Source: a virus. From it: a DNA stretch of 64,000 bases. Where the stretch lies: positions 97,782 to 161,781 of IMG/VR virus record IMGVR_UViG_3300020385_000005; one strand, written 5' to 3'. Position 1 is the stretch's first letter. Every line of letters begins with the position of its first letter. Below the pieces are notes generated by a model. That model had not been told where the DNA came from. It worked only from the letters and a program-made list of their open reading frames with translations, and did no database searches. A program made the translations under genes and the position numbers. Positions 15,528 through 56,371 of this stretch are shown in pieces.

Positions 15528-16595
15528 TTAAATTACACCTTTTTTGGTGGGTAAATGAGAACCTAAATAAATAGGATGGGAATCGTTAAAATTAGTATTG
15601 CCGTTAGCATCTTGGTAGATAACAGCATAACCATTCATAGCATTTTTAAATCTTAAATCTGCTCTGAACTGGTAGGGGAGTTTATGCGCCATAGCGCCTT
15701 GTTCGATGAGCAGTTTTCCTGAAACTACTCCCTTATAAACCTTGTGGGTGTGGCCGACAACTATAGAATCAAAATCAGTTTGATCCATTCTGTGTGCAAA
15801 ATGGTCAAGTAACTTAACTACAGTTGCTCCAGGGTAACGGCTGGCAAAACCACTTGGGTGTGTAAAGATTGTTTGACCTATCCTAACGTACCAAGAGTCG
15901 GCTTTTTGATAATGAACGTTTTCAAATTCATGTACTTTTTCTAAATCTCCAAACGCATTAAGTCTTTCACCATTAGCAATTCTTGAAAGAAGATCTGGGC
16001 GATAAACTTTCTCTATATCTGAAGATATGCCACTCATTTTAAGAGCTCGAGTAGTTCTGTAATCATGATTTCCTGAAACAAGAACGACCATAGGGAAGTT
16101 ATCTGAAAGGTATTTGACTAAATCAAAAGCAGCTCGATATTCTTTTATTGCAGCAACGTTTTTGCTTTTACTAAAAGTACTAAACATATAGGCGTCAAGT
16201 ATATCACCATTCAAAACAATAACATCTGCATCGTGGTGTTGAGCAAGAGCTATTTTCATATCTTCCCAAAGAAAAAATGGTATGTGAAGATCACTAAAAG
16301 AAACAATTTTCCTTTCTTTACTGGTCGTAAGGCCTAAGTCTAGATGTTCACTTTCAGATCTAAATTCCTTTGCAGCATCAATGATTGTTGCCCAAGCGTG
16401 ATCATATTCAGGTACTGCGGCTTCAGTAATATTTTCACGAGCAACTTTAGTTCTTACAGCATGAAAAGTTCTTTTAACTGGAAAACCCGGAGTTCCATTG
16501 TCATGTTTCAAACAAATTAATTCAGCAATTTCTTTAAAAGTTTTTTCGCCAGTAAAAAGTTGGAGTAGGTATTCTTCTTCAGGAGTCCATCTCAT
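15528..16595 (-). CDS. Calcineurin-like metallophosphoesterase with N-terminal SANT/HTH-like domain
   Basis: About 355 residues from the ATG at 16595, preferred because AGGA lies 5 bases upstream. The N-terminal 50 residues (WTPEEEYLLQLF) look like a Myb/SANT or HTH DNA-binding helix set. The catalytic part has all metallophosphoesterase motifs: SDLHIP, NGDILD, GNHDYR and VVGHTHK. This could be a DNA or nucleotide phosphatase or a nuclease of the SbcD type; the DNA-binding-like N-terminus favours DNA. It overlaps the end of the DnaE C-terminal gene, so it is in the replication operon. Confidence 0.72.
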   Translation of the reverse strand: MRWTPEEEYLLQLFTGEKTFKEIAELICLKHDNGTPGFPVKRTFHAVRTKVARENITEAAVPEYDHAWATIIDAAKEFRSESEHLDLGLTTSKERKIVSFSDLHIPFFLWEDMKIALAQHHDADVIVLNGDILDAYMFSTFSKSKNVAAIKEYRAAFDLVKYLSDNFPMVVLVSGNHDYRTTRALKMSGISSDIEKVYRPDLLSRIANGERLNAFGDLEKVHEFENVHYQKADSWYVRIGQTIFTHPSGFASRYPGATVVKLLDHFAHRMDQTDFDSIVVGHTHKVYKGVVSGKLLIEQGAMAHKLPYQFRADLRFKNAMNGYAVIYQDANGNTNFNDSHPIYLGSHLPTKKGVI

Positions 16596-17841
16596 AATCG
16601 TCCTCATATAAATGTATGGAATTTAAAATTAATTTTATATCAGGTTCTATTCTTTCTACTTTAACTTTGCAACAAACAATATCGGTCTCTTTAAGCTCAA
16701 GCTTTGAAACTTTTGGCCACAACTGTGGGAAAACAACAATCTCCGCACTACTGGTCTTATCATTGATTTCAATGAAAGCCATTTGTTTGCCTTTGCGAGT
16801 TACAATAGTCTTTATAGACAGGATAACACCTGCGACATTAGCATATTCAGATTCAGTTAGGGAAGATAATTTATCCCTACGTATATCAATTAAATCTAAA
16901 GGGTGGCCGCCAATATAACATCCAATGTAATTGGCTTGATCTAGAATTTCTTTCATACCTAGTTCTACAAATGAATTTTTAAGTAGTTCAGGAAATTCAG
17001 GTTTTTCTTTTTCCTTTAAGGATACTTTTTTCTTTAGCTCTTGATCTTCAATTGGTTGAAGTTCTTCAGACATAAGGTGAAAGTTATCCATATCGTTCTC
17101 TTTTATTTTATCTTTATCAATTCTATTTTGGATCTTTTTGATTTCTTTTCTAAGAAAATTACGACGCTCAATTAGCGGAATCACTCTTCCGTTATACGCA
17201 TTTCGTTCAATAACGTCTAATTGTCTCTGCTTGTATGCTTCGACGTCTCTTATATAAGCATATATAAGTGGGCACTTTTCAAGTAAATCGGCTCTATCAT
17301 AACCTAATTTATCAAAAGCACCAGCTTTAACTAAGGCTTCAAAGGTTTTTGTGTTTACTTTCTGCAAGTTCACTCTAGAAACAAAGTCTTTGACAGATTG
17401 GAAAGGAGTTTTTTGACGAGCTTTAATTATCATACGAGCTGCAGTTCTACCAACATCTCGAATTGCATTTAGTCCAAAAAAAATCTCGCCATTAGCAATT
17501 GTAAATTCAAAACTTGATTGATTAACATAAGGCGGGTTCACAATTACACTAAACTTTTTTGCTTCTGCAATGTATTCTGGAGCTTTAAATGCCCAGCTTT
17601 TAGGTTGCAAAGTTTTACTTCTAGTAGACATGAGAGCTGTAAAGAATTCTACAGGGTAGTGTGTTTTCATATATGCACTTACATAAGTGAGTATAGAGTA
17701 ACTAACACTATGTGCTTTATTAAAACAGTTAGAAGCGATTGCGCCATTTTCTAGAACAAAGTTATGGTTACCTTCTAAAGAAGCCACACCTATATCGTAT
17801 ACCTCTTGTTCTCCGAGATATTCTTTCGAAATTATTTTCAT
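16579..17841 (-). CDS. dnaE: DNA polymerase III alpha, C-terminal piece with split-intein C-half
   Basis: 420 residues. Residues 1-38 are an intein C-terminal half (KEYLGEQEVYDIG, then NHNFVLENGAIASN), ending in the Asn that cyclises. They are followed by Cys39 of CFNKAHS, exactly the junction used by the cyanobacterial DnaE split intein. After splicing, residues 39-420 supply the polymerase fingers end, a helix-hairpin-helix-like region (VGRTAARMI) and an OB-fold (about 330-400). The matching N-half is at 25525-27144. An AAGGA ribosome site precedes the ATG. The protein is useless as a polymerase alone, so trans-splicing is strongly implied. Confidence 0.92.
   Translation of the reverse strand: MKIISKEYLGEQEVYDIGVASLEGNHNFVLENGAIASNCFNKAHSVSYSILTYVSAYMKTHYPVEFFTALMSTRSKTLQPKSWAFKAPEYIAEAKKFSVIVNPPYVNQSSFEFTIANGEIFFGLNAIRDVGRTAARMIIKARQKTPFQSVKDFVSRVNLQKVNTKTFEALVKAGAFDKLGYDRADLLEKCPLIYAYIRDVEAYKQRQLDVIERNAYNGRVIPLIERRNFLRKEIKKIQNRIDKDKIKENDMDNFHLMSEELQPIEDQELKKKVSLKEKEKPEFPELLKNSFVELGMKEILDQANYIGCYIGGHPLDLIDIRRDKLSSLTESEYANVAGVILSIKTIVTRKGKQMAFIEINDKTSSAEIVVFPQLWPKVSKLELKETDIVCCKVKVERIEPDIKLILNSIHLYEDDYEMDS
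17728..17841 (-). other. Split intein C-half (Int-C, 38 residues)
   Basis: Encodes residues 1-38 of the polymerase C-piece. It has the block F signature VYDIGV and NHNF, and the terminal IASN; the next codon (17725-17727) is the nucleophilic Cys+1. Length and motifs match Nostoc-type DnaE Int-C (about 36 residues). The penultimate residue is Ser, as in the cyanobacterial DnaE inteins, instead of the usual His. Confidence 0.93.
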
Positions 17842-25524: not shown

Positions 25525-27144
25525 TTAGCTTTTTAATTTTAAGTTTCGTTGATATATAGCATCAATTTCAAGCATTTTGTTATTTAAAGTTAAAAAATTA
25601 TGATCGATAGTGCAATCAACGTAAGAGTGGTTATCGAAGGTGTATCTAAAAACTTTTTTGACCCCTTGAGTGTGCCACTGAGTTACTGTTTGAAAATGAT
25701 ATTTATCACTTTTTGTATTGTACGATAGCACGTTAACAGGTTTTTTTTCTGCAACAATATCTTTTATCGCAAAAAGACCTTGATCTGTTTGAATTTGAGT
25801 GTTTGCAGCTAAACAATAATCAGCAAAGCCAACAAGATTGTCCCACAGCTCTTTACTGTAAGTTTCAGAAAGTCCTCCAATTGAAATGCACCCATCAACA
25901 AATTGTTCTTTATAGGTGTTTAAAACATCTACTTTTTTCTTGCCCATAGCACGTCTAATATCGTCAGCTTCTTTAGGAGTGAAGCCTGCTATCTTAGAGC
26001 AAATATCCATTACTTGCTCTTGATAAACCAAAGTCCAATAAGAACTTTTTAAAATTTCTGCAATATTTTCTGGAAGTTCATCAGGTGGGCAATCATTATA
26101 TTTATTTATAATGTACTGCTTATCAAGTCCTGCTTGAAGTGGGCCAGGACGATTCAATGCAGAAATAGCAGATAAATCTTCTATAGATTTTGGTTTAATT
26201 TTTATAATTAACTCTTTAGCCATACCCGATGTTTCCATTTGGAAGACACCAGTAAGCAATCCTTTTTCTAAAGTATTGTAAGTTTGATTATCAAAATCAG
26301 GAATTGCATATGGATTTATTTCAATGTCATGATTATCTTTTATTAAAGAAACGCATTCTTTTATAATAGAAAGAGTATCTATTCCTAAGAAATCAAATTT
26401 AATCAAACCTAATTCTTCACACTCATCTTTATCAAATTGAGTTATGCGGTCTGCTTTTTTATTTTTCCATAAAGGTACAATATCATCTATGTCGGAATCA
26501 CTAATGATTATACCAGCAGCATGAATCCCAAAGTTAGCCACCATACCTTCTATTCTATCTGCGAATTCTAAAAACTCTAGATAGCGAGGATCTTCTTGAA
26601 CTTCAGGGTTCATTTCTAGAACTTCATCTAATGTTGCTTCTTTTCCAAATTTAGGTGGAGGAATTTTTTTAAGTAATTCACTTAAATCTTCTGATTCTTT
26701 TTCAGTTATACGATAATAAGAGCGCGCAAGACTTTTAGGTTTAAAAGTTCCGTGCGTAATGATATTAGCGACTTTGTCTTCACCCCAGTAGTCTATACAC
26801 CACTGGATAGCAGTTTCACGATCCAAAGCATCGTGATCGATATCTATGTCCGGAGGAGAGCCATTAATAGTATTGGATCTGGCTTTTTCAAAATCAAACT
26901 GATTAGTAAGGCCAGTTATATAAAGTATAATACTGTTGTGCGGGTTGTCTTCGAAGAAGGGAAGTTCTGGTGGGTTTTTATTAAAGTTAGCAATAGCCCA
27001 GAGACAATCGTTAATCTTTTGAAGATCATCTAGGGCTGACATTTTAATTTCAAACTCCAGATAATCTGGATCAACTTGAATATATCTTGTATCTATTATA
27101 TAAGGGTCTATACCCTCTAGTATTTCTTTTCTTTTTTGATCCAT
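25525..27144 (-). CDS. dnaE: DNA polymerase III alpha, middle (palm) piece with split-intein N-half
   Basis: 539 residues. An N-terminal extension (1 to about 95) has no recognisable polymerase motif. Then come the palm catalytic aspartates in PPDIDIDHD (near residue 97) and the third aspartate in KFDFLGI. GVFQMETSGM and LNRPGPLQ follow, then VYQEQVM. It ends GFADY then Cys444, where a 96-residue intein N-half begins; its TIDHNF carries the block B Thr-x-x-His. The extein stops at the exact site of the cyanobacterial DnaE split intein. It needs the N-terminal piece (28172-29500) for the PHP domain and the C-piece (16579-17841) for completion. Confidence 0.92.
   Translation of the reverse strand: MDQKRKEILEGIDPYIIDTRYIQVDPDYLEFEIKMSALDDLQKINDCLWAIANFNKNPPELPFFEDNPHNSIILYITGLTNQFDFEKARSNTINGSPPDIDIDHDALDRETAIQWCIDYWGEDKVANIITHGTFKPKSLARSYYRITEKESEDLSELLKKIPPPKFGKEATLDEVLEMNPEVQEDPRYLEFLEFADRIEGMVANFGIHAAGIIISDSDIDDIVPLWKNKKADRITQFDKDECEELGLIKFDFLGIDTLSIIKECVSLIKDNHDIEINPYAIPDFDNQTYNTLEKGLLTGVFQMETSGMAKELIIKIKPKSIEDLSAISALNRPGPLQAGLDKQYIINKYNDCPPDELPENIAEILKSSYWTLVYQEQVMDICSKIAGFTPKEADDIRRAMGKKKVDVLNTYKEQFVDGCISIGGLSETYSKELWDNLVGFADYCLAANTQIQTDQGLFAIKDIVAEKKPVNVLSYNTKSDKYHFQTVTQWHTQGVKKVFRYTFDNHSYVDCTIDHNFLTLNNKMLEIDAIYQRNLKLKS
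25528..25815 (-). other. Split intein N-half (Int-N, 96 residues)
   Basis: Encodes residues 444-539 of the middle polymerase piece. It starts with Cys1 (CLAANTQI), has WHTQG and VFRYTF strands, TIDHNF (Thr-x-x-His) and MLEIDAIYQRNL. Length and motif order match Nostoc-type DnaE Int-N (about 102 residues). It pairs with Int-C at 17728-17841, about 7.7 kb away. No homing endonuclease domain is present in either half. Confidence 0.93.
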
Positions 27145-28171: not shown

Positions 28172-29500
28172 TCAAAACGGAATTGAATATTTGTCGGCTT
28201 TATAAGCCATCTCTTTATCAAAAATAAGCGGTGTGGCACCACGACCTTCATTCAAAAATCTCTCAAAGATTAATCCGTATTTTATAGGATCCACTTCGGT
28301 TATTCCAAGCGCATACGCTATAAGAGATCCAGCAGCAGACCCTCTTCCAGGACCATGTAAGACGCCTCGTTCTCTAGCGCCGTTCATAAATTGTGCGACG
28401 ATAAGTAAGTAGTCAGCAAAGCCCATTTTTTTAATGACGTTTAATTCATAATTCAAACGGTCCCTATATTCTTGTGTTGGCATTTGACCAAACCTATTAA
28501 ACAATCCATGTTGACTTTCAATCTCTAGAAAAGAGATATCAGTATATCCTTCTGGAATGTCTTTATATTTAGGGTACCTATTCATTCTGTCCATAAAATA
28601 TGAATCGGAGTCAATCATGTCAGCAAGCGTTACTGTGTTAGAGATAACATCATAAGGCATACCTTGAGCAGATGCTTCATTCCACATCCAGTCATGATCT
28701 GCCATATGAACTTTTATTTCACCGAAAGTAAATCTTTTAGGATTCGATAAAGTAGTTTTGGTTTGCATACATAAAGCAGCTTCATGATGCATTTTATCGT
28801 GTTCGTAGGCATAATGACAATCATTCGTCACGATCATAGGGAAATTATTTTTTAAAGCAATTTGTTGCAAAACTTTATTAACAGCTTGCTGTTCTTCTTC
28901 TCTATGAAGTTGCAATTCGACAATAAAGCGATCCTTAAAGATTGATCTGTGATGATGGATTAATTTTTCTGCTTGGGTTATCTCATTGTTAAGAATCAAT
29001 TGAGAAGCGCGACTACCTAAGCAAGTAGTCGTAGCTATGATTCCTTCAGAATGATCAGCTAATAGAGCGTCATCTATACGAGGTTTTCTATAGAAACCAG
29101 TAGTATAAGCTTTAGAAGAAAGTTTAATTAAATTGTGCAGTCCAATGTTATTTTGAGCTAAAAGTATTAAGTGGTAATAGCTTTTACCCATTTCATCTGG
29201 TTCTTTTACTGTACGGTCATTTACAGAGTAATAAGCTTCCATACCAATAATAGGTTTGATATTAGCTTTGTTACATTCTTTATAAAATCTGTAGCATCCA
29301 GAAATGTTACCATGATCAGTCATTGCAACAGCAGGTTGATTCATAGACTTTACGAAATTTGGAAGTCTAGAGACCTTGTTGATACCGTCAAGTAGAGAAT
29401 ATTCAGTATGTACGTGCAAATGTACATACTTAGATTCATTATAATTAGAAGTTACATTTTCGTGGTGCGAATGTTTGTGAGTAGAGCAATCATGTGTCAT
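28172..29500 (-). CDS. dnaE: DNA polymerase III alpha, N-terminal piece (PHP domain)
   Basis: About 442 residues from the ATG at 29500, which overlaps the RecA stop; upstream frame lies inside recA. A His-rich lead (HKHSHH) precedes the PHP domain with VHLHVHTEYS, TDHGN and TNDCHY, metal-binding motifs of the PHP exonuclease or structural domain. The palm entry GPGRGSAAGS follows. It ends FERFLNEGRGATP plus an 18-residue tail, just before the PDIDID catalytic motif carried by the middle piece. No intein half is visible at this break, so the two pieces probably associate non-covalently. Confidence 0.88.
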   Translation of the reverse strand: MTHDCSTHKHSHHENVTSNYNESKYVHLHVHTEYSLLDGINKVSRLPNFVKSMNQPAVAMTDHGNISGCYRFYKECNKANIKPIIGMEAYYSVNDRTVKEPDEMGKSYYHLILLAQNNIGLHNLIKLSSKAYTTGFYRKPRIDDALLADHSEGIIATTTCLGSRASQLILNNEITQAEKLIHHHRSIFKDRFIVELQLHREEEQQAVNKVLQQIALKNNFPMIVTNDCHYAYEHDKMHHEAALCMQTKTTLSNPKRFTFGEIKVHMADHDWMWNEASAQGMPYDVISNTVTLADMIDSDSYFMDRMNRYPKYKDIPEGYTDISFLEIESQHGLFNRFGQMPTQEYRDRLNYELNVIKKMGFADYLLIVAQFMNGARERGVLHGPGRGSAAGSLIAYALGITEVDPIKYGLIFERFLNEGRGATPLIFDKEMAYKADKYSIPF

Positions 29501-30527
29501 CTTCTTTAGTGTCTTCTTGGTCTGGGTTGAGAATAAAATCATACAGAAGTTGGTAATCTTCAGGGTTTTCGATAAAGTGACTTTTAGCGCCAAGTTTACC
29601 GCCAGTACAAAGAGACTCTTCCTCACCGGTAGCTGGATTAATCCATTTTACAGAAGAACCTGCGAAACGCATTATGCCAGTATCTTTAGCATAACCAATA
29701 ATATCTAAATATGGATCAGTGCCTTTTCCACAGATGAAATCAAACTCTGCGGTTTTATTTAAAGCAGGAGCGACTTTGTTTTTAACTACTTTAACTTTCA
29801 TAGTTATTGCACCATCTTGATCTTTAGATGGCTTGCTACTTACACGAAGTCTAACTGAACAGTAAAAAGGTATTGCATTTCCACCACTAGTCGTTTCTGG
29901 ATTACCATACATAACGCCAATTTTCATACGCACTTGGTTGATAAATAAATATAAACATTCATTATCTACGCTTATTTTTGAAATAGAACGCAATGCTTTA
30001 GATAGAAGTCTTGGTAAATCGCCAACGCCGGTTTCATTCATTAATCTTTTAGTATCTTTTTCTGACTGAGCAGCATCGATACTATCGAATACAATTACAC
30101 CAACTTTGCCAGTTTTTCCTAAATCCTGACACAACTGAAGTGCTTCTTCAGCAGTGTCAGGGTAACAAAAGATCATTTTTTCGGGTTGGAGTCCCATAGA
30201 TTGGACAAGGTCCAGACCAGTAGTACGCTCAAGATCAACATAGACAGGCGGTCTGTCATATCCATGCTTGTCAGTGTATTGTTTAAGGACTTGTAAGCAG
30301 AGAGAGGTTTTGCCTGCGGAGGGGGGACCATATATTTCGACGACACGATCATTAGGGAGACCTCCAACCCCAAGGCAAGCATCAAGAGATATTGAGCCCG
30401 TTGAAACGGGAGTAACTTTTTCATATTTAGGTCCTAAAGTCATAATGTTTTCTTTGCCAAATTTTTTAGCAATAGAAGCTGCAATCATATCGATTTCAGG
30501 GATGCCTGTAATTTTTTTATTTGCCAT
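29490..30527 (-). CDS. recA: RecA recombinase
   Basis: 345 residues with RecA features: Walker A GPPSAGKT (67-74), Walker B hydrophobic stretch IVFDSIDA, INQVR, the conserved TSGGNA loop, and KVVKNKVAP. It forms the filament that pairs ssDNA with duplex DNA, probably supplied by the Cas4-like and resolvase-like nucleases and the SSB here. The stop overlaps the DnaE N-piece start by 11 bases. Length and motifs are typical of bacterial RecA rather than T4 UvsX. Confidence 0.93.
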   Translation of the reverse strand: MANKKITGIPEIDMIAASIAKKFGKENIMTLGPKYEKVTPVSTGSISLDACLGVGGLPNDRVVEIYGPPSAGKTSLCLQVLKQYTDKHGYDRPPVYVDLERTTGLDLVQSMGLQPEKMIFCYPDTAEEALQLCQDLGKTGKVGVIVFDSIDAAQSEKDTKRLMNETGVGDLPRLLSKALRSISKISVDNECLYLFINQVRMKIGVMYGNPETTSGGNAIPFYCSVRLRVSSKPSKDQDGAITMKVKVVKNKVAPALNKTAEFDFICGKGTDPYLDIIGYAKDTGIMRFAGSSVKWINPATGEEESLCTGGKLGAKSHFIENPEDYQLLYDFILNPDQEDTKEDDT

Positions 30528-37482: not shown

Positions 37483-38037
37483 TTAATTAGATGTGAATTT
37501 CATCTCTACAGAGAGTGACAATCCAATTTGTTCAAAAATTTTTCTTAAGTCTAGAAGCGTGTCTACGCGTTGTTTCCAAAATGTTTTTACAATTTTAGCT
37601 GCACGTTCTGCAGAGACAGTGTTAACAAGGTAAGATTCTGCCATTTTTTCAATTACAGATGCAGCTGGGCGTTTAGCGCCACGTTTAGCGTAATTAGAAA
37701 CTATGACATTGATGATGTCTGCTTTTCGAATAGTATTTCCTCCGCCGATAGTATCGGCCATGGAGCAAGCTACAGAGTAGTAATTCGAAGCAATTTGTAA
37801 GTTAGTGCTCAGCTCTAGCAACAAGTCTCTGAATAGAACTATAGTTAGTTGATTATTAGGAGGTATTGCTATCATCAAACTAGTGGCCCAATCATAAAGA
37901 GTTTTATCGTAAAAGACAAAATCCTTCACAAAGGCCTGAGTTATTTGAGTATAAAGCTCAGCACCCTCTTGAAGGGACTGGATTATGTCTTCAGCAGTAG
38001 CTTCAGGTATCTCTTCTACTATGGGTGTGTTAGTCAT
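37483..38037 (-). CDS. Hypothetical helical protein
   Basis: 184 residues, mostly alpha-helical with heptad-like stretches and a moderately acidic N-terminus (EEIPEATAEDII). Lys and Arg cluster near KRGAKRPAASV. No motif points to a function. It is in the operon with the SpoVG-like gene. Confidence 0.5.
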   Translation of the reverse strand: MTNTPIVEEIPEATAEDIIQSLQEGAELYTQITQAFVKDFVFYDKTLYDWATSLMIAIPPNNQLTIVLFRDLLLELSTNLQIASNYYSVACSMADTIGGGNTIRKADIINVIVSNYAKRGAKRPAASVIEKMAESYLVNTVSAERAAKIVKTFWKQRVDTLLDLRKIFEQIGLSLSVEMKFTSN

Positions 38038-38040
38038 GAA

Positions 38041-38460
38041 TCAATAACCCCACAGAGGTTTACGATCTCTAGGAGGATTAGAAGTCGACTTAGTAGTAGT
38101 GGTAGAAGATTTAGCGTTCACTGCCGCTGTTGCGGCTCGACTAGCATTAGAATGATTGGTTGAAGATTTGGAATTAGAAGCAGAATTATATGCATTAATG
38201 ATAGATGCTTTTAGTTCTTCTGCAAAAGTAGAGCCTTCTTCGCCTTTGAAGCGTACGTCATCAAAATATTTTTCGATTGAAACTCCGTCTTCCATAACGG
38301 TGCCTTTATGAGAGGGTACTGAAACGAATAAACCTTTTGAACCGTCGATAACCTTGAAGCCTTCGAGGTCTAGAATGTCATCAATAGTAACCGTAGCAAA
38401 GGCTTTGAGTTTACTGTTAGGATTTGTTAAAGGGCGAATTTGAATAGAATATGAAAACAT
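38041..38460 (-). CDS. SpoVG-like nucleic-acid-binding protein
   Basis: 139 residues. Residues 1-85 follow SpoVG: SIQIRPL, then a LKAFATVTID strand, GFKVIDGSKGLFVSVPS (the family's hallmark I-x-V-I-D-G-x-x-G-L-F-V-x-x-P-S), and a helical end. SpoVG proteins bind DNA and RNA and regulate gene expression in Gram-positives and spirochaetes. The last 50 residues are a Ser/Thr/Asn-rich, low-complexity tail with a basic end (RDRKPLW), an unusual addition. Confidence 0.75.
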   Translation of the reverse strand: MFSYSIQIRPLTNPNSKLKAFATVTIDDILDLEGFKVIDGSKGLFVSVPSHKGTVMEDGVSIEKYFDDVRFKGEEGSTFAEELKASIINAYNSASNSKSSTNHSNASRAATAAVNAKSSTTTTKSTSNPPRDRKPLWGY

Positions 38461-38736
38461 TTATTTTTCTTTCTTATCTTTGTTATTAATTATTACTTCA
38501 TTTTGATTTAAGAATATTTTATAGTAGTAGCCTGCCATAAAATATATTGAAAAAAGCTGTGTTAAATTAGCTTCTAACAAGTTTGTTTTTACAGTTTTTG
38601 TTATTACTTTTATAAAAGCATCGATATCTTTTAGATTTTCGTTATGCTCTTCGACGAAACATTGCTTTAAGATGAGCTGAAAAAGTTCCTCTGTAGTAAC
38701 ATTGAGAGAACCTTCTTCAGTTTTTATTTCAAACAT
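38461..38736 (-). CDS. Hypothetical acidic helical protein
   Basis: 91 residues, helical; an acidic N-terminal segment (EIKTEEGSLNVTTEEL) and a hydrophobic C-terminal helix (FSIYFMAGYYYKIFL) are visible. It overlaps the Whirly-like gene by 8 bases and the SpoVG-like start follows directly, so it belongs to this operon. No family recognised. Confidence 0.5.
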   Translation of the reverse strand: MFEIKTEEGSLNVTTEELFQLILKQCFVEEHNENLKDIDAFIKVITKTVKTNLLEANLTQLFSIYFMAGYYYKIFLNQNEVIINNKDKKEK

Positions 38737-39166
38737 TACTCCAGCCTAAAATAATAGGAAGCGCACTGCTAAAGAGTCTGCCTAAAACGTTAAACTCTCC
38801 AGCTGTTAAGCTGACTGTAACGCGATTATCGCCCACATTGAGTGACATCATAAAAGTGCCTTCATATTTACCTTCGCCATGATTGAAGATCAACTTTTTA
38901 TTAGTAGAGTCGTTTACATGGAAGAAAGATCCCCACCCTTGTTTATTAGGGTCATCGAAAAACATGCAAAGATCATTGATACCAAAAGCAAATGTTACTT
39001 TTTGGTTTCGCCAATCATAGCTTTTTTCTCCTTGAGAAGGGGCCATTTCTAAAAGAACAGCACCAACTTTATTAATTCGTCCGTTTTCATCTCTTCGTGG
39101 AGGTAGTACGGTAAATTGAGCGGCGCCGCTTTTTTTGTAAATATTAAAACTTGAAGGATATGTCAT
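38729..39166 (-). CDS. Whirly-fold single-stranded-DNA-binding protein
   Basis: 145 residues, matching the plant Whirly proteins along nearly the whole domain: an IYKKSGAAQFTV first strand (Whirly IYKGKAALTV), then a MAPSQGEKSYDW segment (plant APSAGVRQYDW), an FFHV and a C-terminal SLTAGEFNVLGRLF helix then LPIILGW (plant I-T-x-A-E-F-x-V-L then LP-x-LIGW). Whirly proteins bind ssDNA as tetramers and protect organelle genomes. A phage homolog would be a second ssDNA-binding protein beside the SSB at 49163. The fold assignment is by motif recall only. Confidence 0.7.
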   Translation of the reverse strand: MTYPSSFNIYKKSGAAQFTVLPPRRDENGRINKVGAVLLEMAPSQGEKSYDWRNQKVTFAFGINDLCMFFDDPNKQGWGSFFHVNDSTNKKLIFNHGEGKYEGTFMMSLNVGDNRVTVSLTAGEFNVLGRLFSSALPIILGWSNV

Positions 39167-40228: not shown

Positions 40229-40525
40229 TTATCTTTTAGATGGATTGTTTCCGCGACCACCGCCAGAAGGTCTTCCTGTTTGAGAAGGGCCATTGGCAGG
40301 AGTACTCTTACTATTACCTTTGACACTGCCTGTGGCGAAGATTTCTGCATTTTCAGGAATCAAAGTGTCAGAATAAGTAACAGGAGCTACACCTGCACCG
40401 TTAATGATCATGTCTCTTCCATGAAGATTTTCTTGGGAAACCAAATCTGCAAGTGTCATATTTGCATTGAGAGTTAATTGACGAGCACCAGGGCCAGGGA
40501 TTACAATAAGTGTGATATTGTTCAT
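40229..40525 (-). CDS. Ubiquitin-like protein precursor 1 with C-terminal tail
   Basis: 98 residues. Residues 1-70 are a beta-grasp (ThiS/MoaD/ubiquitin-like) domain: NNITLIVIPG strand, a TLADLVSQ helix, GRDMIINGAG strand and turn, ending EIFATGSVKG. It aligns residue for residue with Ubl 2 (41184-41399). The final G70 is where a ubiquitin-like protein exposes its C-terminal glycine. Here 28 extra residues follow (Ser/Pro/Gly/Arg-rich), so it looks like a precursor needing cleavage, presumably by the JAMM protease at 42400. Conjugation targets are unknown. Confidence 0.72.
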   Translation of the reverse strand: MNNITLIVIPGPGARQLTLNANMTLADLVSQENLHGRDMIINGAGVAPVTYSDTLIPENAEIFATGSVKGNSKSTPANGPSQTGRPSGGGRGNNPSKR

Positions 40526-40532
40526 TTTTTCC

Positions 40533-40826
40533 TTATATATTTTCTTGCTTAAAGAAGAGGTATGAAAGCTCTTCTTGTTGTTTTACTATAACACATCCAG
40601 CGCATTTTGGGCGCATTTTAAAAGGCGTATTAGTATTAATATAATCTAAAGCTTCTTGTTTAGAAGCAAAGGGTTGAGTGTTGACGATCTTGTATCTTTT
40701 AAGATCTAAAAAAGGAGATTGAATTTGAAATTCTTCAAACCAACCTAATTCTGTTTCTATTAAGGTGGTAAAAGCATCTTTGGCTCCATTTCCTTCATAG
40801 GTTCGATATTCTAACTGATCAATCAT
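40533..40826 (-). CDS. Ubl-linked protein X2 (CAGCVIV family)
   Basis: 97 residues. Similar in plan to X1 at 40847-41182: a helix with Ala/Glu pattern, a strand with Gln/Pro, then KCAGCVIVKQ near the end (X1 has PAGCIRL), giving one conserved Cys-Val/Ile segment. It sits between X1 and Ubl 1. Its family is unknown to me; context suggests it belongs to the Ubl pathway, possibly a substrate adaptor. Confidence 0.45.
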   Translation of the reverse strand: MIDQLEYRTYEGNGAKDAFTTLIETELGWFEEFQIQSPFLDLKRYKIVNTQPFASKQEALDYINTNTPFKMRPKCAGCVIVKQQEELSYLFFKQENI

Positions 40827-40846
40827 TAGGTTCCTTCATTAAGGAT

Positions 40847-41182
40847 TTATTCTGAAGCCCAACCGAAAAATAAAAATTCGAATGAACTTGGTTTGTTTTT
40901 GTCTTGGTTCCAGCCAATTTGACGAGCAGGTGAGTCTAAACGGATGCATCCAGCAGGACCCCATTTATTAGAGTACTCAGTGTCTCTGAGAGAGTTTGCT
41001 AAAGCATAAGCTTTTTCTCGAGAAAGAGGTTCGGAAGAAGCTATTGTGAAGCTGTGCTTTTCAGCAATAGTACCTGTATAACCGCCGTGACCATGCATAT
41101 ATCGGGCTTCTTTTTGAGCTGCAAAGAAAGCTTCTTCTGCAGTTTTCCCTCGAGAAGTTTCATAAAAAGTTGTAGCACCCAT
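40847..41182 (-). CDS. Ubl-linked protein X1 (HGHGGYTGTIAEK family)
   Basis: 111 residues starting one base after the Ubl 2 stop. It has an amphipathic TAEEAFFAAQKEARY helix, HGHGGYTGTIAEK, a strand, then PAGCIRL. I recall the HGHGGYTGTIAEK motif in small phage and bacterial proteins of unknown role. The one-base spacing to Ubl 2 makes co-translation likely. X1 and X2 look like distant paralogs, paralleling the duplicated Ubl. Confidence 0.5.
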   Translation of the reverse strand: MGATTFYETSRGKTAEEAFFAAQKEARYMHGHGGYTGTIAEKHSFTIASSEPLSREKAYALANSLRDTEYSNKWGPAGCIRLDSPARQIGWNQDKNKPSSFEFLFFGWASE

Positions 41183-41183
41183 A

Positions 41184-41399
41184 TTAATTGCCTTTTACAC
41201 TGCCAGTAGCAAAGACTTCAGCGTTTTGAGGAATTGTAGTAGACTCCCATGCTGAAGGAGCAATACCTGCACCGTTAATAATAATGTCACGGCCATGTAA
41301 ATTTTCTTGGCAAACAAGGTTAGCAACAGTATCATTGGAGTTGATTGAAATTTGACGAGCGCCAGAACCAGGGATGATAATTAAAGTGATGTTATTCAT
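41184..41399 (-). CDS. Ubiquitin-like protein 2
   Basis: 71 residues from the ATG at 41399; the longer frame would run into a terminator hairpin. Same beta-grasp domain as Ubl 1 (NNITLIIIPG, TVANLV, GRDIIINGAG, EVFATGSVKG), but it ends one residue after the glycine (KG then Asn71). One residue to trim is unlike classical ready-made ubiquitin-like proteins. A ThiF/E1 (41679), JAMM protease (42400) and an E2-like domain (43515) follow upstream. Confidence 0.75.
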   Translation of the reverse strand: MNNITLIIIPGSGARQISINSNDTVANLVCQENLHGRDIIINGAGIAPSAWESTTIPQNAEVFATGSVKGN

Positions 41400-41424
41400 T
41401 TTTTTTCCTTTTTGGAACATAAAA

Positions 41425-41446
41425 AAAGGGAGCAAAAGCTCCCTTT
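41425..41446 (-). terminator. Intrinsic terminator between E1 operon and Ubl operon
   Basis: Minus strand: a perfect 9-base-pair stem (41446-41438 with 41433-41425), a TTTT loop and a run of Ts to 41421. It ends the transcript of the NTase-E2-JAMM-E1-Hc1 genes, so Ubl 2, X1, X2 and Ubl 1 need read-through or their own promoter. Confidence 0.85.
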
Positions 41447-41490
41447 GTAAAAGTGTAAATAGTAAATTGTGTTATAAGATTTAAAATATG

Positions 41491-41679
41491 TTACTTGCTT
41501 TTGCGGGAATTTCTTTCCGCTTGAACTTGTTGACGCAAAGATTGAAGTTCAGCTTTAACTTCTTGAGCAGCGGCACGTACACGTCTCCCAGCAGCATCAT
41601 TTCCGCTATCAAACTTTTCAGCATCAGATAACGTTTCAGTAAGAATGTCTACTAGTTGTTGTAGTTTTTGTTTTGTCAT
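41491..41679 (-). CDS. Histone-H1-like (Hc1-type) DNA-binding peptide
   Basis: 62 residues, helical and charged: LQQLVDILTETLSDAEKFD, then a GNDAAGRRVRAAAQEVKAEL core that matches the Hc1/histone-H1-like G-N-x-A-A-G-x-R-V-R motif of bacterial small basic proteins, ending SRKSK. Such proteins bind and compact DNA. It directly follows E1 in one transcript and precedes the terminator, so it may be an early target or structural partner. Confidence 0.6.
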   Translation of the reverse strand: MTKQKLQQLVDILTETLSDAEKFDSGNDAAGRRVRAAAQEVKAELQSLRQQVQAERNSRKSK

Positions 41680-42416
41680 TAATTTCCTCCCGGGGTGTAA
41701 ATTGACAATGGAAAGTTTACATTTGAAGGCAAGGAGAATACTTGCTTTCTATTGATGTTATATTGTTGTTGATGTCGATCCTGTGCTGCAAAAGCACATA
41801 TTGTGTGTACAATAGAGGAAGCGACAATACAAGTCAATGTTGTTATGATTCGTGCATTGCAGGCACTTTCTGTTACTTCGTCATCAGTTTTTAAAGTAGC
41901 TAAATATTCATGAATTTGAGAAGGTCGAGAAGGATCAAGAATGTTAATTTCGGCATGTTCGAAACCCATTCTAGATTCGAAAATAAGATCAACTAATAAA
42001 TGAGACTCTAGTCCTTCGATAATATCTTGACGTGCAGATAGAGAATCAACAGCTACAAAAACAAAATCCTCTACAAGATGTTGATGTTCTGCAGATGTAT
42101 AAAATTCATTATAAGTCTCTACAATTACTTGAGGATTGAATATTTTAAGTGACTGCTTGAACGCATCTACCTTATTCATACCAACTTGATTTATTGTATA
42201 GATTTGATTTGGTAGATTATGAGTCTCTACAATATCAGCATCCCAAACACGAAAATGTTGCCAGCCCATTTTGGCTGCTAAATAACCAACCCAACTGCCA
42301 GTAGCACCAACACCTATGATGTTTAGAACTTTATCTTGAGAGTCTTCTGGGCCAAAAAAAGCTCCATGTCTTAAAAAAGAGACATTATGAGCTATAGGAT
42401 TAGATTCTTCCGTCAT
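41679..42416 (-). CDS. E1/ThiF-type ubiquitin-activating enzyme
   Basis: 245 residues, a single Rossmann ThiF domain. Motifs: nucleotide loop IIGVGATGSW (33-42), WDADIVETHNLPNQ (58-71), NKVDAFK (81-87), AVDSLSAR (122-129) and a candidate catalytic Cys186 in TESACNAR. It adenylates the Ubl C-terminal glycine and passes it as a thioester. The protein ends YTPGGN. It overlaps the JAMM gene by 17 bases and the Hc1-like gene by 1, so the three are coupled. Activity is inferred from motifs. Confidence 0.8.
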   Translation of the reverse strand: MTEESNPIAHNVSFLRHGAFFGPEDSQDKVLNIIGVGATGSWVGYLAAKMGWQHFRVWDADIVETHNLPNQIYTINQVGMNKVDAFKQSLKIFNPQVIVETYNEFYTSAEHQHLVEDFVFVAVDSLSARQDIIEGLESHLLVDLIFESRMGFEHAEINILDPSRPSQIHEYLATLKTDDEVTESACNARIITTLTCIVASSIVHTICAFAAQDRHQQQYNINRKQVFSLPSNVNFPLSIYTPGGN

Positions 42417-43512
42417 GAGTAATGTACTCCTTGCATTCTTTTCTAGTTTCTAAATCTACAATCTCAAGTGTAGATTTAGCAGCATCATAAACATTACGTA
42501 TAGTGACATCCTTATCAGTTACAAGGCTTTGAAAAAGCGTGAAAACGTGTTCTTCAGAAGAGATCTTTCTGTTGAATGCCTCTTCCAAGAAGATCTCTGG
42601 AATCTTTTTTTGTTTGCCGCATAAGAAGTAAGTGAAAAAGACTATTTCACGATCATCTAAACTTCTCCCCAATGAGTCATACAGTTTAAGAAGAGCGTTG
42701 GTGTTCATTTTGTACTTTTTATTGAATTGGTTAACAGGAAGTTCATAAGCATTGTAAGCAGCAAAAGCTTCTTCGAGGATGCTAACAATTATAGTTTCAT
42801 TAATATCTTCATCATCTTGACCAAAGAGAAAATCATTGCTTGCTCCGTAAGAATAGGAGTTGTTGCTGTTGGAGTTGCCCCAAGACTTAGATTTTTTAAA
42901 TGGTTTTACACCAAATAGTTTTGGTTTGGGTTTTTTGAATTTAGTTTTGGCTGCTTGATGAATATAATCAAAATCATAATCATTAACGATATGTATGGGG
43001 ACGCCTTCATGAATGGTGGCTCTATCAGGATCATACACTCGACTGTAAAATTGATCTTTTTTATTAAAAATCAACATTATTTGCCAGAGTTTTTGGCCTT
43101 GCTCAATTGACAAACCTATAAAAGAATTGAATTGAAGATCATCTTGGCCGCTAGGATTAGGTGACATATTAACGTGACTGTGACACCAACAAGTCATAGC
43201 CGTTAATTTTTGATTAACAATTTCTTGGTTTGCATAATCGCTTTGTAAATCTCTATAAAAATCCATCATCATAGCCGAAGTTGTATCTACTTGCGCTGCT
43301 GATGTGTTTTGAGTTGGAATATAGAGTTTTTCTGATAAAAGAAGATGAACTTCGTTAGGGGATTGCTTATACACGATGGGCTCAACGGTATGAAACCATT
43401 GCGCTTCTTGTGGTGCGAGTTTAACAATTTCTTTAATTGCAGACAAACCTTTATGAGTGATAGAAATTATAGGTATATTATTTAAAATATGATAATTTGT
43501 AATAGATTTCAT
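42400..43512 (-). CDS. JAMM/JAB metalloprotease (deubiquitinase-like)
   Basis: 370 residues. The JAMM zinc motif is complete: Glu36 (PQEAQWF) and HSH-x7-S-x2-D (His111, His113, Ser121, Asp124, in CWCHSHVNMSPNPSGQDD). Residues about 185-225 are a basic, Ser/Asn-rich linker, and the last 130 residues form an extra helical domain with no known match. It would cut Ubl precursors or remove Ubl from targets. It is coupled to the E1 and lies 2 bases after the E2-containing protein. Confidence 0.82.
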   Translation of the reverse strand: MKSITNYHILNNIPIISITHKGLSAIKEIVKLAPQEAQWFHTVEPIVYKQSPNEVHLLLSEKLYIPTQNTSAAQVDTTSAMMMDFYRDLQSDYANQEIVNQKLTAMTCWCHSHVNMSPNPSGQDDLQFNSFIGLSIEQGQKLWQIMLIFNKKDQFYSRVYDPDRATIHEGVPIHIVNDYDFDYIHQAAKTKFKKPKPKLFGVKPFKKSKSWGNSNSNNSYSYGASNDFLFGQDDEDINETIIVSILEEAFAAYNAYELPVNQFNKKYKMNTNALLKLYDSLGRSLDDREIVFFTYFLCGKQKKIPEIFLEEAFNRKISSEEHVFTLFQSLVTDKDVTIRNVYDAAKSTLEIVDLETRKECKEYITHDGRI

Positions 43513-43514
43513 TT

Positions 43515-46505
43515 TTACCTTAATGCGTACGGGATATATGGCTGATTAGTATTAAAATCAGTAATAGTATCTGTAGCAGTTACATTTGTATTAGTTTCAA
43601 GAGTAGGAGTTTCTTCGAGGACAGGGCCCTCTTGAAGCATTGGGCTCTGTGCAACAGTCTCTTCTGTGGTTTGCTCATGAAGAGCATCTGCAGTGTTCAC
43701 TGCAGGCGCTTCTTGAGTTTCAATCATTTCAACAAGGAATTCTTCCACCTCATCATCTGTTATTTGAGTAGTTTCAATTTTGGTTCCTTCAACTGAAGCC
43801 GCAGGGGAATTTAAAAAATTTTCATACGTAGGGAACTTGGAGTAAGTTTTCCCCCAAACATCAGTGCTATTAGCATTTTTAACCCAAGTTAAAGCTGCTA
43901 TTATAATTGTTTTGAGATTGTTATTTTCAAAAGCTTTATAAAGTAAAGCTGACGCTTCCCCAAGGCAAGCATTTCTAAATGGATAAGACTTGTAATCAGT
44001 AACATTGCCAAAACCATTAAAAAAACCGTTAGTACTATTAGAACTACAGTGAGGGTGGGTGTAAATCGTGCCAGAAGTATCATAACCATGTATGGAACTA
44101 GGGTATGCCAAAGCAATGTGTAAAGAGTTTTTCTTTACCTTTACAATATAAGGACCAGCTACGCGCTGACCCTTATTTCCGCCATCTACGTTAATAATTA
44201 CTGGCTTGTCAATCAAGAACATTACTTCTTCAAGAATAAGATCTGTTTTTTGAGTAAGTAGTGACTTGGCAAATTCAGACAATTCTCTAGGATCACTTTG
44301 ATAATTTAATGTTTTTAATTTGCCTTGAGTTCCTAAATGGTTTAATCTTGCGCTAAGCTCAAGTATTTTTATAGATTCTTTTTCATATAAATTTTTAAAA
44401 AATGTTCCGTTTTTATATGAACTACTTTTTATTGCAGCTTCAACTTCTTGATCATATTTAGATTTAATTGTTGAGTGAAGTGTTGCATTAGTAAGAATTG
44501 TTTTTAATAAATCCATTCGTTTATTAAAAGCAGACTTCAAATTTTTAGCGTGGTTTACAATTTCAATTTCAAATGCTGCAATACTGTCCATGTAAGTTTG
44601 TATTGCTTCACGTGCACTTCTTATATCATTCTGCTTAGTTGAAACTGTAATGGCATTATTGGTTATGATGTCTCGTTCAACTTTATTTTGATTTATTAAT
44701 TTCGAATAATGATTATTCACTTTATTGTATTTCTTAAGAATACTTGGATTCAAAGCAAGTTTTGAAGTTAAACTATCACTAAAATTGCACAAAGAAGTTG
44801 GTGTAGCAGTTTTCAACTTTTGTTTTACGTTAGGAATTGATGTTATAAGAGTATCTAATACAGTTGAGCTGCAATTAGAAAAAGAAGGAGAATTAACAGA
44901 AGAATATTCTGCCAAGTCCTTCATGCGTTCAAGATGTCTTTTTATGTATTGCTCGTAATTGGCAAAAATAAGCCCATCTGCTCCGTACTTAGAACAAAAA
45001 GATTTAAGTTCCTGCCTGCTTCTTTTTTTCTTTTTAACTTCATCTAAAGTAGATGTGGGATTATAAAGAGAGAAAGAATAAGCAAGCTTGTTTTGCATAT
45101 CAGAATCTTTAATCAAAAATGGAACTAATACTGGTGCGAAAAAACCTTTACGTATTAATGTTTGTTTTTTGGTTAAGTTTATAAAGTCAAAATCTTGTTT
45201 GGAAGTAGTTTTTGTAAAGCCATTTGAAATCAATCCTACTGCTCTAGAATTTTCATTTTGAGTTAAAGATTCTTTAAAAGTAAAGCGATGATCGTTATTT
45301 GCATGATGCTTAAAAATAAAGCCTGAGCTACCGCCTATGTAAAGAGCGGGAGTAGAGTTATTATTACCTGGAAGGTGATTGGTGACAGAAGAGCCTCTTC
45401 CGGAATTATTTCCATATGAAAACATACTATTGAATTCATAATTATATTCATGGCTAGAGCTAGGCAGGCATTGAAAATCATAAGGTTTAGTATTTACAAT
45501 CTTAATGATATTATCATCATTAAGCGTATCTGAAAAACCAGTTCGAGCAATAGTTTTAAATTTATTGTAAAAAGCAGAAGAAAATGAAGAGTAAATTTTT
45601 ACGGAATCTTTTTCTTCTAAAAAACCTGTTTTAACATAATTGTGCACTTGAATCGTTTTCAATAAATCGATTCGATGTTGTAGTTCTTCGGTAGAAAGTA
45701 AAAGTAATTGTTGAGTTGGGCGGTAAAAATCAATATGTAAAAAATTTGTATGCGCATCAGTATCATTCAATTGTTGCCACAAAGAATATGCTGCTGGATA
45801 AGATGTATTTAAAGTTTCTAAATCTTGATTTCCTGTTTCAGCGATTAATTTTTTATGTATAATATATTCATAAAAACTAGCATACAATTCTGCCAATGCA
45901 ATAATTGGAGATACGTTTTCGCGAGATCCTGAAATTTGCGTAGTTTCTTCAGCATTGCTAATGAAACAAACATACCCGTTTTGTAATAACTTTGTATGAA
46001 TTTCTGGATTTAATGAATAAGAATTCATTTTTGAAGACGTAGCTTCAAGAACTTTCCAAGTTTCTTGAAAGAATTGATTTGGAGTGTGTCTGTTGAATTT
46101 GAATCTATTTGATAATGTATGACTACTATATAGAGTATGATATAAAGCGCGAATATCATTTGTTGTTTGGCTATGATTTCGATCACTTGAATTGAATAAA
46201 TTTAGAAAAGTTTTCCATGGACTATGACCACGATGATAGTAGCTAGGTCCATTCGCAGCAGGAAGATAATGGACAATTGGAAGAGTAGGGCTGTTCGTAT
46301 CGAACATACTAGGGTTTAAAAGTTGTAAACGATCTCCAAGTTCGAAGTTGAACTGAGGATCGTTTTGTTGGGTTTCAAGAGGTTGGAAACCATTTGAGTA
46401 ATATTCATTTTCTTCATTAACAAGAAGTTTTTCTATCATGCTAGAGAGCCAAAAACGCTCTTCATTTTCAGAAGATAAAACATCAAAGAAGTTGTAAAAA
46501 TTCAT
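43515..46505 (-). CDS. 996-residue protein with C-terminal E2-like domain
   Basis: The first about 700 residues have no recognised motif; residues about 500-700 are mostly helical (coiled segments with Lys/Asn). Residues about 770-880 look E2-like: KPVIINVDGG, AGPYIVKV, HPHC (817-820), then NACLGEAS with candidate catalytic Cys847, followed by a helix LLYKAF and an LTWVKNANSTDVWGK end. The H-P-x and C-L-G pairing is the signature of prokaryotic E2-type Ubl-conjugating enzymes. The last 110 residues are acidic and low complexity. It is the upstream-most large gene of the Ubl locus; the E2 call is pattern based. Confidence 0.62.
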   Translation of the reverse strand: MNFYNFFDVLSSENEERFWLSSMIEKLLVNEENEYYSNGFQPLETQQNDPQFNFELGDRLQLLNPSMFDTNSPTLPIVHYLPAANGPSYYHRGHSPWKTFLNLFNSSDRNHSQTTNDIRALYHTLYSSHTLSNRFKFNRHTPNQFFQETWKVLEATSSKMNSYSLNPEIHTKLLQNGYVCFISNAEETTQISGSRENVSPIIALAELYASFYEYIIHKKLIAETGNQDLETLNTSYPAAYSLWQQLNDTDAHTNFLHIDFYRPTQQLLLLSTEELQHRIDLLKTIQVHNYVKTGFLEEKDSVKIYSSFSSAFYNKFKTIARTGFSDTLNDDNIIKIVNTKPYDFQCLPSSSHEYNYEFNSMFSYGNNSGRGSSVTNHLPGNNNSTPALYIGGSSGFIFKHHANNDHRFTFKESLTQNENSRAVGLISNGFTKTTSKQDFDFINLTKKQTLIRKGFFAPVLVPFLIKDSDMQNKLAYSFSLYNPTSTLDEVKKKKRSRQELKSFCSKYGADGLIFANYEQYIKRHLERMKDLAEYSSVNSPSFSNCSSTVLDTLITSIPNVKQKLKTATPTSLCNFSDSLTSKLALNPSILKKYNKVNNHYSKLINQNKVERDIITNNAITVSTKQNDIRSAREAIQTYMDSIAAFEIEIVNHAKNLKSAFNKRMDLLKTILTNATLHSTIKSKYDQEVEAAIKSSSYKNGTFFKNLYEKESIKILELSARLNHLGTQGKLKTLNYQSDPRELSEFAKSLLTQKTDLILEEVMFLIDKPVIINVDGGNKGQRVAGPYIVKVKKNSLHIALAYPSSIHGYDTSGTIYTHPHCSSNSTNGFFNGFGNVTDYKSYPFRNACLGEASALLYKAFENNNLKTIIIAALTWVKNANSTDVWGKTYSKFPTYENFLNSPAASVEGTKIETTQITDDEVEEFLVEMIETQEAPAVNTADALHEQTTEETVAQSPMLQEGPVLEETPTLETNTNVTATDTITDFNTNQPYIPYALR

Positions 46506-46716: not shown

Positions 46717-47490
46717 TTAAAATTCTATTGATTCTGTTGGCTCTGCATGGTTTGAAGTGCCATATCTAAGCCAAGATTCCATATGTTGGACAATCTCATA
46801 AAGAGATCTCAAATTATTTTGGTTAGGATTGTAAGTTCCATTATAAAACAAATTGCTGTCAACATGAATCTTTTTCAAGGTTTGCTTTGAATGAGATTTA
46901 GTAAAAGCATGCAGGCTCTGTAATAGATCTACTGAATTAGAATCTAAATCTAAATCATAGCGATCGACATACTTGCGAACCCTATTAAATAGTAGGGCTA
47001 TCTTTTTCAATTTATTTAAAATTGTCATTCCTTCAGTAATTTGAGAACTCCTGATTGAGAGTTTTCCATCATAAAAAAGTTTAAACAATTCATCATCAAT
47101 ATATATTGAATCTTTTGTTATACAAATAGAGGCATTTTTAAAATCATGCAGGTATATAATTTCTTCTGGTGACGCAAAAAATTTATTTATAAGTTGTAAT
47201 TTAATACCTTGAATATAGAAAGTATTTGAATTCTCTGATTCATTAGAAGACGTAAAAGATTTTAAAATATCTTGCGCAGCAAAATATTCTGCAGATGTAG
47301 AGAAGTAAAGATCTATATCATCGTAAACGGAAGCTGGTTTGAACAAAAGATGTATTGCATAGCTACCACTGATGATTGGGTTTGATTCCCAAAATAATTC
47401 AGGGAGGAAATCTAAAGTACAAAGTAATTTTTTTCTTATTTTTTTATGGTATTTTAATTCACCATTTTTGTAGTTAAATATTTTTAACAA
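46717..47490 (-). CDS. Nucleotidyltransferase-fold protein (MNT/AbiEii type)
   Basis: 257 residues, TTG start at 47490 with no ATG available nearby; an in-frame stop lies just upstream. The core has IISGSYAIHLLF then a SVYDDIDLYF strand, the G-S/G-x..D-x-D pattern of the polymerase-beta-like nucleotidyltransferase fold as in AbiEii or MNT enzymes. A helical C-terminal half follows. The start is inside the T-run of a terminator (47493-47516), so translation may be governed by that hairpin. First gene of the Ubl transcript. Confidence 0.55.
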   Translation of the reverse strand: MLKIFNYKNGELKYHKKIRKKLLCTLDFLPELFWESNPIISGSYAIHLLFKPASVYDDIDLYFSTSAEYFAAQDILKSFTSSNESENSNTFYIQGIKLQLINKFFASPEEIIYLHDFKNASICITKDSIYIDDELFKLFYDGKLSIRSSQITEGMTILNKLKKIALLFNRVRKYVDRYDLDLDSNSVDLLQSLHAFTKSHSKQTLKKIHVDSNLFYNGTYNPNQNNLRSLYEIVQHMESWLRYGTSNHAEPTESIEF

Positions 47491-55541: not shown

Positions 55542-55543
55542 AG

Positions 55544-55616
55544 TGGGCCCCCTGGGGATTGAACCCAGGACCTGCCGATTATGAGTCGGATGCTCTAACC
55601 ACTGAGCTAGAGGCCC
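55544..55616 (-). tRNA. tRNA with CAU anticodon (Ile-CAU or Met)
   Basis: Full cloverleaf: acceptor GGGCCTC with GGGGCCC (one G-U pair), D-arm GCTC/GAGC, anticodon loop CTCATAA, and T-arm CTGGG/CCCAG with loop TTCAATC. CAU is read as Met, or as Ile (AUA) if C34 is made lysidine. The body resembles bacterial tRNA-Ile2, and AUA is a frequent codon in an AT-rich phage. No CCA is encoded. Confidence 0.9.
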
Positions 55617-56176: not shown

Positions 56177-56299
56177 GGAAATAGGTGTCCAGCATGCAAG
56201 CTTTCTGGACGTAAAGGGGAGTGCCCAGTCCCGTTTTATATAGCTGAAAACGAAAAACTATATAAACCTTGCTTGTTGTGCCAAACAACTTGACACAAG

Positions 56300-56371
56300 C
56301 ACACCAGGCAGGATTTGAACCTGCGACCAATGGCTTAGAAGGCCACTGCTCTTCCACTGAGCTACTGGTGC
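56300..56371 (-). tRNA. tRNA-Arg (UCU anticodon)
   Basis: Cloverleaf with acceptor GCACCAG/CTGGTGT (one G-U pair), D-arm GCTC/GAGC, anticodon arm with loop CTTCTAA (anticodon UCU, reads AGA/AGG), and T-arm GCAGG/CCTGC with loop TTCAAAT. AGA is frequent in AT-rich genes here, a common reason for phage tRNA-Arg. No CCA encoded. Confidence 0.93.

Follow-up and report, generated by a model that had tools for sequence, protein, structure and literature searches.

A predicted ubiquitin-like conjugation and deconjugation cassette among the replication genes of a tailed-phage clade

The 161,781-base virus record IMGVR_UViG_3300020385_000005 of IMG/VR contains, in its terminal 64 kb (positions 97,782 to 161,781; the whole 64,000-nucleotide stretch analysed, here called the window), a tightly packed minus-strand operon (the cassette) at 40229-46505 that encodes a large protein with a ubiquitin-conjugating (E2)-like domain, a JAB/JAMM metalloprotease, a ubiquitin-activating (E1)-like enzyme, an Hc1-like peptide and two ubiquitin-like (Ubl) proteins. 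The record is assigned to a tailed phage because a terminase (E=7.9e-31), a portal protein (5.4e-55) and major head proteins are encoded elsewhere in it. In transcription order the genes are a putative nucleotidyltransferase, a 67-residue protein, the E2-domain protein, the JAMM protein, the E1, the Hc1-like peptide, the 71-residue Ubl, two small conserved proteins (40847-41182, then 40533-40826), the 98-residue Ubl and then PhoH; the intergenic gaps run from -17 to +20 bp with a single exception of 91 bp, and most of the cassette genes have a purine-rich Shine-Dalgarno-like sequence ahead of them. The assignment of four parts, Ubl, E1, E2 and JAMM, is supported by independent profile evidence, and there is good reason to think that the cassette constitutes a complete, self-contained phage pathway for Ubl conjugation and deconjugation that belongs to the core replication-phase genes. 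Below, L-numbers denote contigs or records with related gene sets and A-numbers denote family alignments or profiles.

The E1-like protein matches Pfam ThiF (PF00899) at 5.5e-23 (81.8 bits against a cut-off of 28.1), the GxGxxG loop of its Rossmann domain reads GVGATG, and its family profile retrieves UBA5 and other E1s among PDB structures. Cys186 sits in E-S-A-C-N-A-R (E-x-x-C-x-x-R) and is invariant in A3 and in A7, the E1 alignment of 11 divergent relatives; certain distant members read SPCTxRA at this loop, resembling the PxCTxR motif of ubiquitin E1s. The JAMM protein carries the motif E...HxH-x7-S-x2-D (E36, H111-S-H113, S121, D124), whose catalytic residues are invariant in the 15-member family alignment A10. 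As a single sequence it scores below threshold for Prok-JAB (0.012); the domain is found in 11 of the 15 family members, and the best PDB matches of the A10 profile are Rpn11 (2.7e-9), archaeal JAMM1, BRCC36 and AMSH. The enzyme is likely to process Ubl precursors and to deconjugate Ubls.

In the E2-like domain GPY, HPH, CLGE and W..N..D.WG are invariant across relatives that are 33-56% identical, and PH stands ahead of the Cys in 22 of the 22 rows of the E2 alignment A5, the full HPH being present in the window and most relatives. Searched directly against Pfam and the PDB, the window E2 family on its own gave no match, and the link to ubiquitin-conjugating enzymes is transitive, through the wider cassette family, and not direct. 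The window-family profile A1 matches that wider E2 family, A8 (consensus HPHV-x-x-x-G-x-PCLGNI), by hhalign at 97.2% (E=4.1e-11), and A8 in turn retrieves human UBE2L3 (5e-4) and UBE2N from the PDB with its HPH...C aligned on their HPN...C active site; to this extent the phage E2 comes close to the classical kind. UQ_con gave a weak, sub-threshold match in two relatives. The sequence profiles thus support assignment of the domain as a putative E2. Identity to three relatives is 57, 54 and 37% in this domain and 34, 30 and 18% in the N-terminal region (57 and 34% for the nearest relative), so that the N-terminal ~700 residues are the fast-evolving part of the protein, a divergence that hints at a possible role in target recognition. 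A match of the large protein to CNF1 (E=0.067, 12.9 bits against a cut-off of 25) was dismissed as chance.

The two Ubls share a domain of ~70 residues ending FATGSVKG-N. The shorter one, with its start taken as the ATG at 41399 and not the TTG at 41435, ends in KG plus a single Asn, and the longer in KG plus a 28-residue tail, Gly/Arg/Asn-rich and basic, that is conserved in the window, L003, L004, L006 and L029. Gly70 is invariant in the Ubl alignment A2. The window-family Ubl profile A6 has E. coli ThiS as its best PDB match (0.022) and aligns with A9, the Ubls of other cassettes, by hhalign at 92.6% (E=4.5e-7) with the Gly ends matched; A9 retrieves SAMP2 (1.6e-7), MoaD and ThiS from the PDB, and the Ubls of L080 and L082 exceed the curated Pfam ThiS cut-off. 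This profile relationship, together with the C-terminal Gly, supports the view that both small proteins are predicted beta-grasp Ubls. Six relatives have fused Ubls, of two units (L002, L006, L029), three (L005, L014) or four (L045), and in the near clade every unit terminates in KG followed by Asn; tandem precursors in which each unit ends in this way therefore imply processing. In architecture, with no kinship claimed, the fused Ubls and the Ubl-tail forms resemble eukaryotic polyubiquitin and ubiquitin-tail fusions. One 383-residue open reading frame of L045 (11917-13068) joins the four Ubl units to a homologue of window 40847-41182, and a degenerate Ubl-like protein without the KGN end (9768-9974) adjoins the three-Ubl fusion of L014.

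A first-pass annotation of the window had named a ThiF domain with a GxGxxG loop and Cys186, a JAMM motif, an E2-like domain with HPHC and CLG (Cys847) in the large protein, and two Ubl proteins with a Gly followed by extra residues. All of these features lie where it had placed them, and the profile matches given above agree with the domain calls.

Scans with JAB, Ubl and E1 found related sets on more than 20 viral contigs. In the near clade the order is E2-JAB-E1-(Hc1)-Ubl, then PhoH, a Whirly single-stranded-DNA-binding protein, SpoVG and the gene at 37483-38037. Sampling independent of the cassette was obtained by using this last gene, an unrelated neighbour, as the sole query: 19 of the 21 contigs so found carry the complete quartet in unchanged order, some pairs being near-identical so that independent lineages are fewer, and the remaining two are interrupted by contig ends. 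Because a quartet sampled through an unrelated gene is present in 19 of 21 contigs, with the other two cut by their ends, the cassette is core phage equipment. Catalytic residues stay invariant in A5, A7 and A10 although identity drops to 15-30%, and the motifs are for that reason not attributable to chance. The first-pass annotation had also called such a locus unusual in a phage; the location in a phage holds, but the locus is no one-off, being core to a phage clade with related sets recurring elsewhere.

More distant E2-JAB-E1 sets occur in the large phages L054-L057. Among cultivated phages, Xanthomonas phage PhiXhv-15 (L058 1733-5612) encodes an E1 and an E2 (hhalign 95.2%), preceded by a Ubl-like protein ending Gly-Gly (weak, hhalign 40%); no JAB was seen beside these genes, as would suit a Ubl for which trimming is unnecessary. 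In crAss-like phages and Flavobacterium FpV4 the E1 and JAMM (98.1%) are clear, and the candidate E2 and Ubl beside them are weak (hhalign 7% and 16%). The E1 of these cultivated phages is frequently annotated as "thiamine biosynthesis protein". Searches of cultivated phages by tblastn with JAB and E2 gave no match, nor did a first genome scan with JAB, and a MoeB match in an Acinetobacter "phage" was set aside, its surroundings being ordinary metabolic genes with no cassette. Many contigs of metagenome-assembled genomes (L070-L090; Patescibacteria, Planctomycetes and others, phage or chromosomal) carry E2-JAB-E1 triads with a canonical HPHV...CLGNI.

Table 1. Features of the cassette and the genes adjoining it (window coordinates).
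Feature	Position	Strand	Basis or remark
Large protein, 996 residues, with C-terminal E2-like domain	43515..46505	-	profile link to cassette E2 family
E2-like domain, residues ~754-899	43809-44246	-	HPH817-819, CLGE at Cys847, then N..D.WG
JAB/JAMM metalloprotease, 370 residues	42400..43512	-	E36, H111, H113, S121, D124; profile retrieves Rpn11
E1-like adenylating/thioester enzyme, ThiF family, 245 residues	41679..42416	-	Pfam ThiF; GVGATG, D59/D61, K82, D124, Cys186
Ubl protein 2, 71 residues, beta-grasp/ThiS-like, ends FATGSVKG-N	41184..41399	-	Ubl family profile
Ubl protein 1, 98 residues, same domain plus basic tail past KG (NSKSTPANGPSQTGRPSGGGRGNNPSKR)	40229..40525	-	tail common to relatives
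Hc1 (histone H1-like) peptide, 62 residues, between E1 and Ubl	41491..41679	-	PF07432 3.4e-14
Small conserved protein between Ubl genes	40847..41182	-	homologue fused C-terminal to four-Ubl polyprotein in L045
Small conserved protein between Ubl genes	40533..40826	-	L029 12780 matches it and 40847-41182
Putative zinc-ribbon protein, 67 residues	46505..46708	-	overlaps E2 gene start; position conserved in relatives
Putative nucleotidyltransferase (GS...DxD)	46717..47490	-	upstream of E2 gene, conserved in near clade

The two small proteins encoded between the Ubl genes are perhaps distantly related to each other. The histone-like peptide of the first-pass annotation is borne out by its Pfam match and is an accessory, missing from several relatives; the nucleotidyltransferase that it also named stays putative, the evidence being a conserved GS/GG...DxD-type pattern in eight relatives and a match to PHROG 4400 (1.2e-6), a PHROG without function, and the gene was not found in L037, L038 or L053. 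Around the cassette lie genes for PhoH, the Whirly protein, SpoVG, ribonucleotide reductase, SSB and ThyX, and no virion genes. The Whirly-family protein (38729-39166, minus strand; PF08536, 1.2e-10) and the SpoVG-domain protein (38041-38460, minus strand; PF04026, 6e-13) stand beside PhoH and are conserved alongside the cassette; in plants the Whirly family binds single-stranded DNA. Elsewhere in the window are two minus-strand phage tRNA genes, Met and Arg(tct), at 55543-55616 and 56299-56371, and a DNA polymerase III alpha divided among three minus-strand genes (28172-29626, 25525-27144 and 16579-17841). At the canonical site, the C-terminal end of 25525-27144 (FADYCLAANTQI...) and the N-terminal end of 16579-17841 (MKIISKEYLGEQEVYDIGV...ASNCFNKAHS) resemble the halves of a split intein of the cyanobacterial DnaE type; the first break falls after ERFLNEGR.

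The route that we infer, for every reaction step as for the target, would begin with the JAMM enzyme cleaving Ubl precursors past the invariant KG, which would shed the Asn or longer tail and split the fused Ubls. The E1 would adenylate the Gly end and hold the Ubl as a thioester on Cys186, from which it would be handed to Cys847 in the E2 domain. Choice of the target, in the manner of an E3, would fall to the large N-terminal region of the E2 protein, which evolves fast, the Ubl being joined to a host or phage replication protein, and the JAMM enzyme would be able to reverse the tagging. The pathway is probably active, and its most likely function would be to tag host or phage proteins reversibly during replication, a role within the infected cell being favoured over one in the virion because the cassette lies among replication genes. 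If the cassette conjugates, host proteins during takeover are the preferred target, at a little under an even chance; the phage's own proteins come second and are rather unlikely, and rival phages, third, are unlikelier again.

The nearness of the Ubls to SAMP2, MoaD and ThiS and the ThiF/MoeB type of the E1 would also suit a sulfur carrier system, with the E1 activating and the JAMM enzyme trimming a ThiS/MoaD-like Ubl that supplies sulfur for tRNA or nucleotide modification and tags no protein; JAB-Ubl-E1 sets tied to sulfur metabolism are known (PMC1779556). However, no complete set lacks a dedicated E2 domain, in which PH and Cys are invariant, nothing recognisable as a sulfurtransferase, rhodanese or thiamine gene lies beside the cassette, and fused precursors of two to four Ubls are atypical of sulfur carriers, all of which makes this explanation very improbable. 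Slightly less so is a weapon against superinfection that would tag structural proteins of rival phages and render their virions non-infectious. It would parallel the bacterial Bil system, which has the same four components (Ubl, E1, E2, JAB; PMC11354881) and is known to act on phage assembly, and the fast-evolving N-terminal region could track changing targets; but exclusion genes are usually patchy, whereas this cassette is core and syntenic across the clade, it is placed among replication genes, and its E2 retains an upstream His, unlike that of type 6d/Bil systems. About equally improbable is counter-defence, in which the cassette would modify or decoy host immune proteins, including host Ubl systems of the Bil type or of the cyclic-oligonucleotide-based antiphage signalling system (CBASS) type. 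Its position in a replication-type gene cluster agrees with this and the JAMM enzyme could strip host Ubls, but a lone JAMM would be enough for stripping, and a full E1-E2-Ubl set across a divergent clade argues against a single patchy host defence as the target.

Several observations weigh against the preferred reading, a working conjugation pathway used in replication. MoeB needs the Arg of its NLxRQ motif, and E. coli ThiF retains it (NLQRQ), but it is replaced in 11 of the 11 A7 rows (NLPNQ; NLANQ in L037); lacking this Arg, the phage E1s could carry out activation by a different chemistry or not at all. In the near clade Asn invariably follows the Gly, including where it is the final residue, a constancy not required of a simple leaving group. 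Neither an E3 nor a partner protease was recognised. The first-pass annotation had made an E2 fold in structure models one test of its proposal, and such a match was not obtained: the AlphaFold model of the window's own E2 domain (8 sequences) is poor and gave no meaningful Foldseek result, and the model of the L004 domain (pLDDT, the predicted local distance difference test, 90.2), which has strands, HPH, Cys and two helices in E2-like order, reached no significant PDB match by Foldseek (best E=0.068), with no E2 among the 50 matches listed, and a single match at E<=0.001, to an unnamed phage protein, in the viral library.

Known bacterial E1-E2-JAB-Ubl operons are mostly regarded as anti-phage defences, and here the entire pathway is core equipment of phages themselves. 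A 2021 jumbo-phage survey (PMC7824862), searched for phage Ubl conjugation, JAB and ThiF, gave no passage on them, and no description of full phage-encoded Ubl conjugation was found in the open-access literature, a prior description in subscription papers or preprints being possible. If the proposal is true, reversible protein tagging in infection would be a little-explored layer of phage biology, and phage cassettes a possible reservoir in ubiquitin-system evolution. A broader and tentative proposal, held at somewhat less than even odds, is that several tailed-phage lineages own a core polyubiquitin-like signalling system, with fused Ubl precursors, Ubl-basic-tail fusions and a combined E2/E3, that would reprogram the cell or the phage's own replication. 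Cultivated phages with related sets make the pathway testable, namely Xanthomonas PhiXhv and, more tentatively, crAss001 and Flavobacterium FpV4.

As to known systems, Iyer et al. in 2006 (PMC1779556) described operons of the E1/E2/JAB/Ubl kind in bacteria, as well as the Ubl and JAB of the lambda tail. The resemblance to Bil (BilABCD; type 6d) proposed in the first-pass annotation holds for the four parts, encoded as four separate genes, and for the Ubl with removable C-terminal residues. It does not extend to the E2, in which the phage keeps the classical HPH upstream of the Cys whereas type 6d lacks that His and has one after the Cys (PMC1779556), nor to the phage order E2-JAB-E1-Ubl, the E2 protein of 700-1100 residues, the status as core phage genes and the nucleotidyltransferase and Hc1 neighbours. 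Multiubiquitin operons (Synechocystis pSYSX, L066) likewise combine fused Ubl repeats with E2/UBC, E1 and JAB, and the pSYSX E1 is the plasmid match of longest coverage (91%); in pSYSX, however, a JAB-like region and the E1 form one protein and the 126-residue E2/UBC is without the HPx-Cys motif, whereas the phage cassette has separate proteins, an E2 with its Cys, up to four repeats and invariant cut sites between KG and N.

Type II CBASS with Cap2-Cap3 (type 6b) also brings together E1, E2 and JAB with a polymerase-beta-type nucleotidyltransferase in one operon. There Cap2 joins E2 and E1 in one protein and it is the CD-NTase that becomes conjugated; membership was rejected, since the phage has separate E1 and E2 genes, with true Ubls, and its nucleotidyltransferase matches no CD-NTase model. 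The ParB-related, ThiF-related cassette (PRTRC) of mobile elements similarly has a ThiF-type E1 within a small-protein cassette; membership was rejected here too, the phage E1 scoring 27.5 bits against the PRTRC_ThiF cut-off of 144.75 and the other cassette proteins matching no PRTRC model. SAMP2, of the archaeal SAMP/UbaA/JAMM1 system, is structurally the closest relative of the wider family of Ubls, and JAMM1 and SAMP2 are paired in a solved structure; archaeal SAMPylation is not known to involve an E2. Lambda tail assembly pairs a phage Ubl (TAPI) with a phage JAB (TAPK) (PMC1779556), but TAPI and TAPK have no E1 or E2 and belong to virion assembly genes, whereas the present cassette stands in a replication-gene cluster. 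The cassette is thus a member of the known prokaryotic E1-E2-JAB-Ubl systems but a distinct variant of them, marked by its place among phage core genes, a classical HPH-Cys E2 within a very large protein, tandem Ubls with junctions between KG and N, and an E1 that reads NLPNQ.

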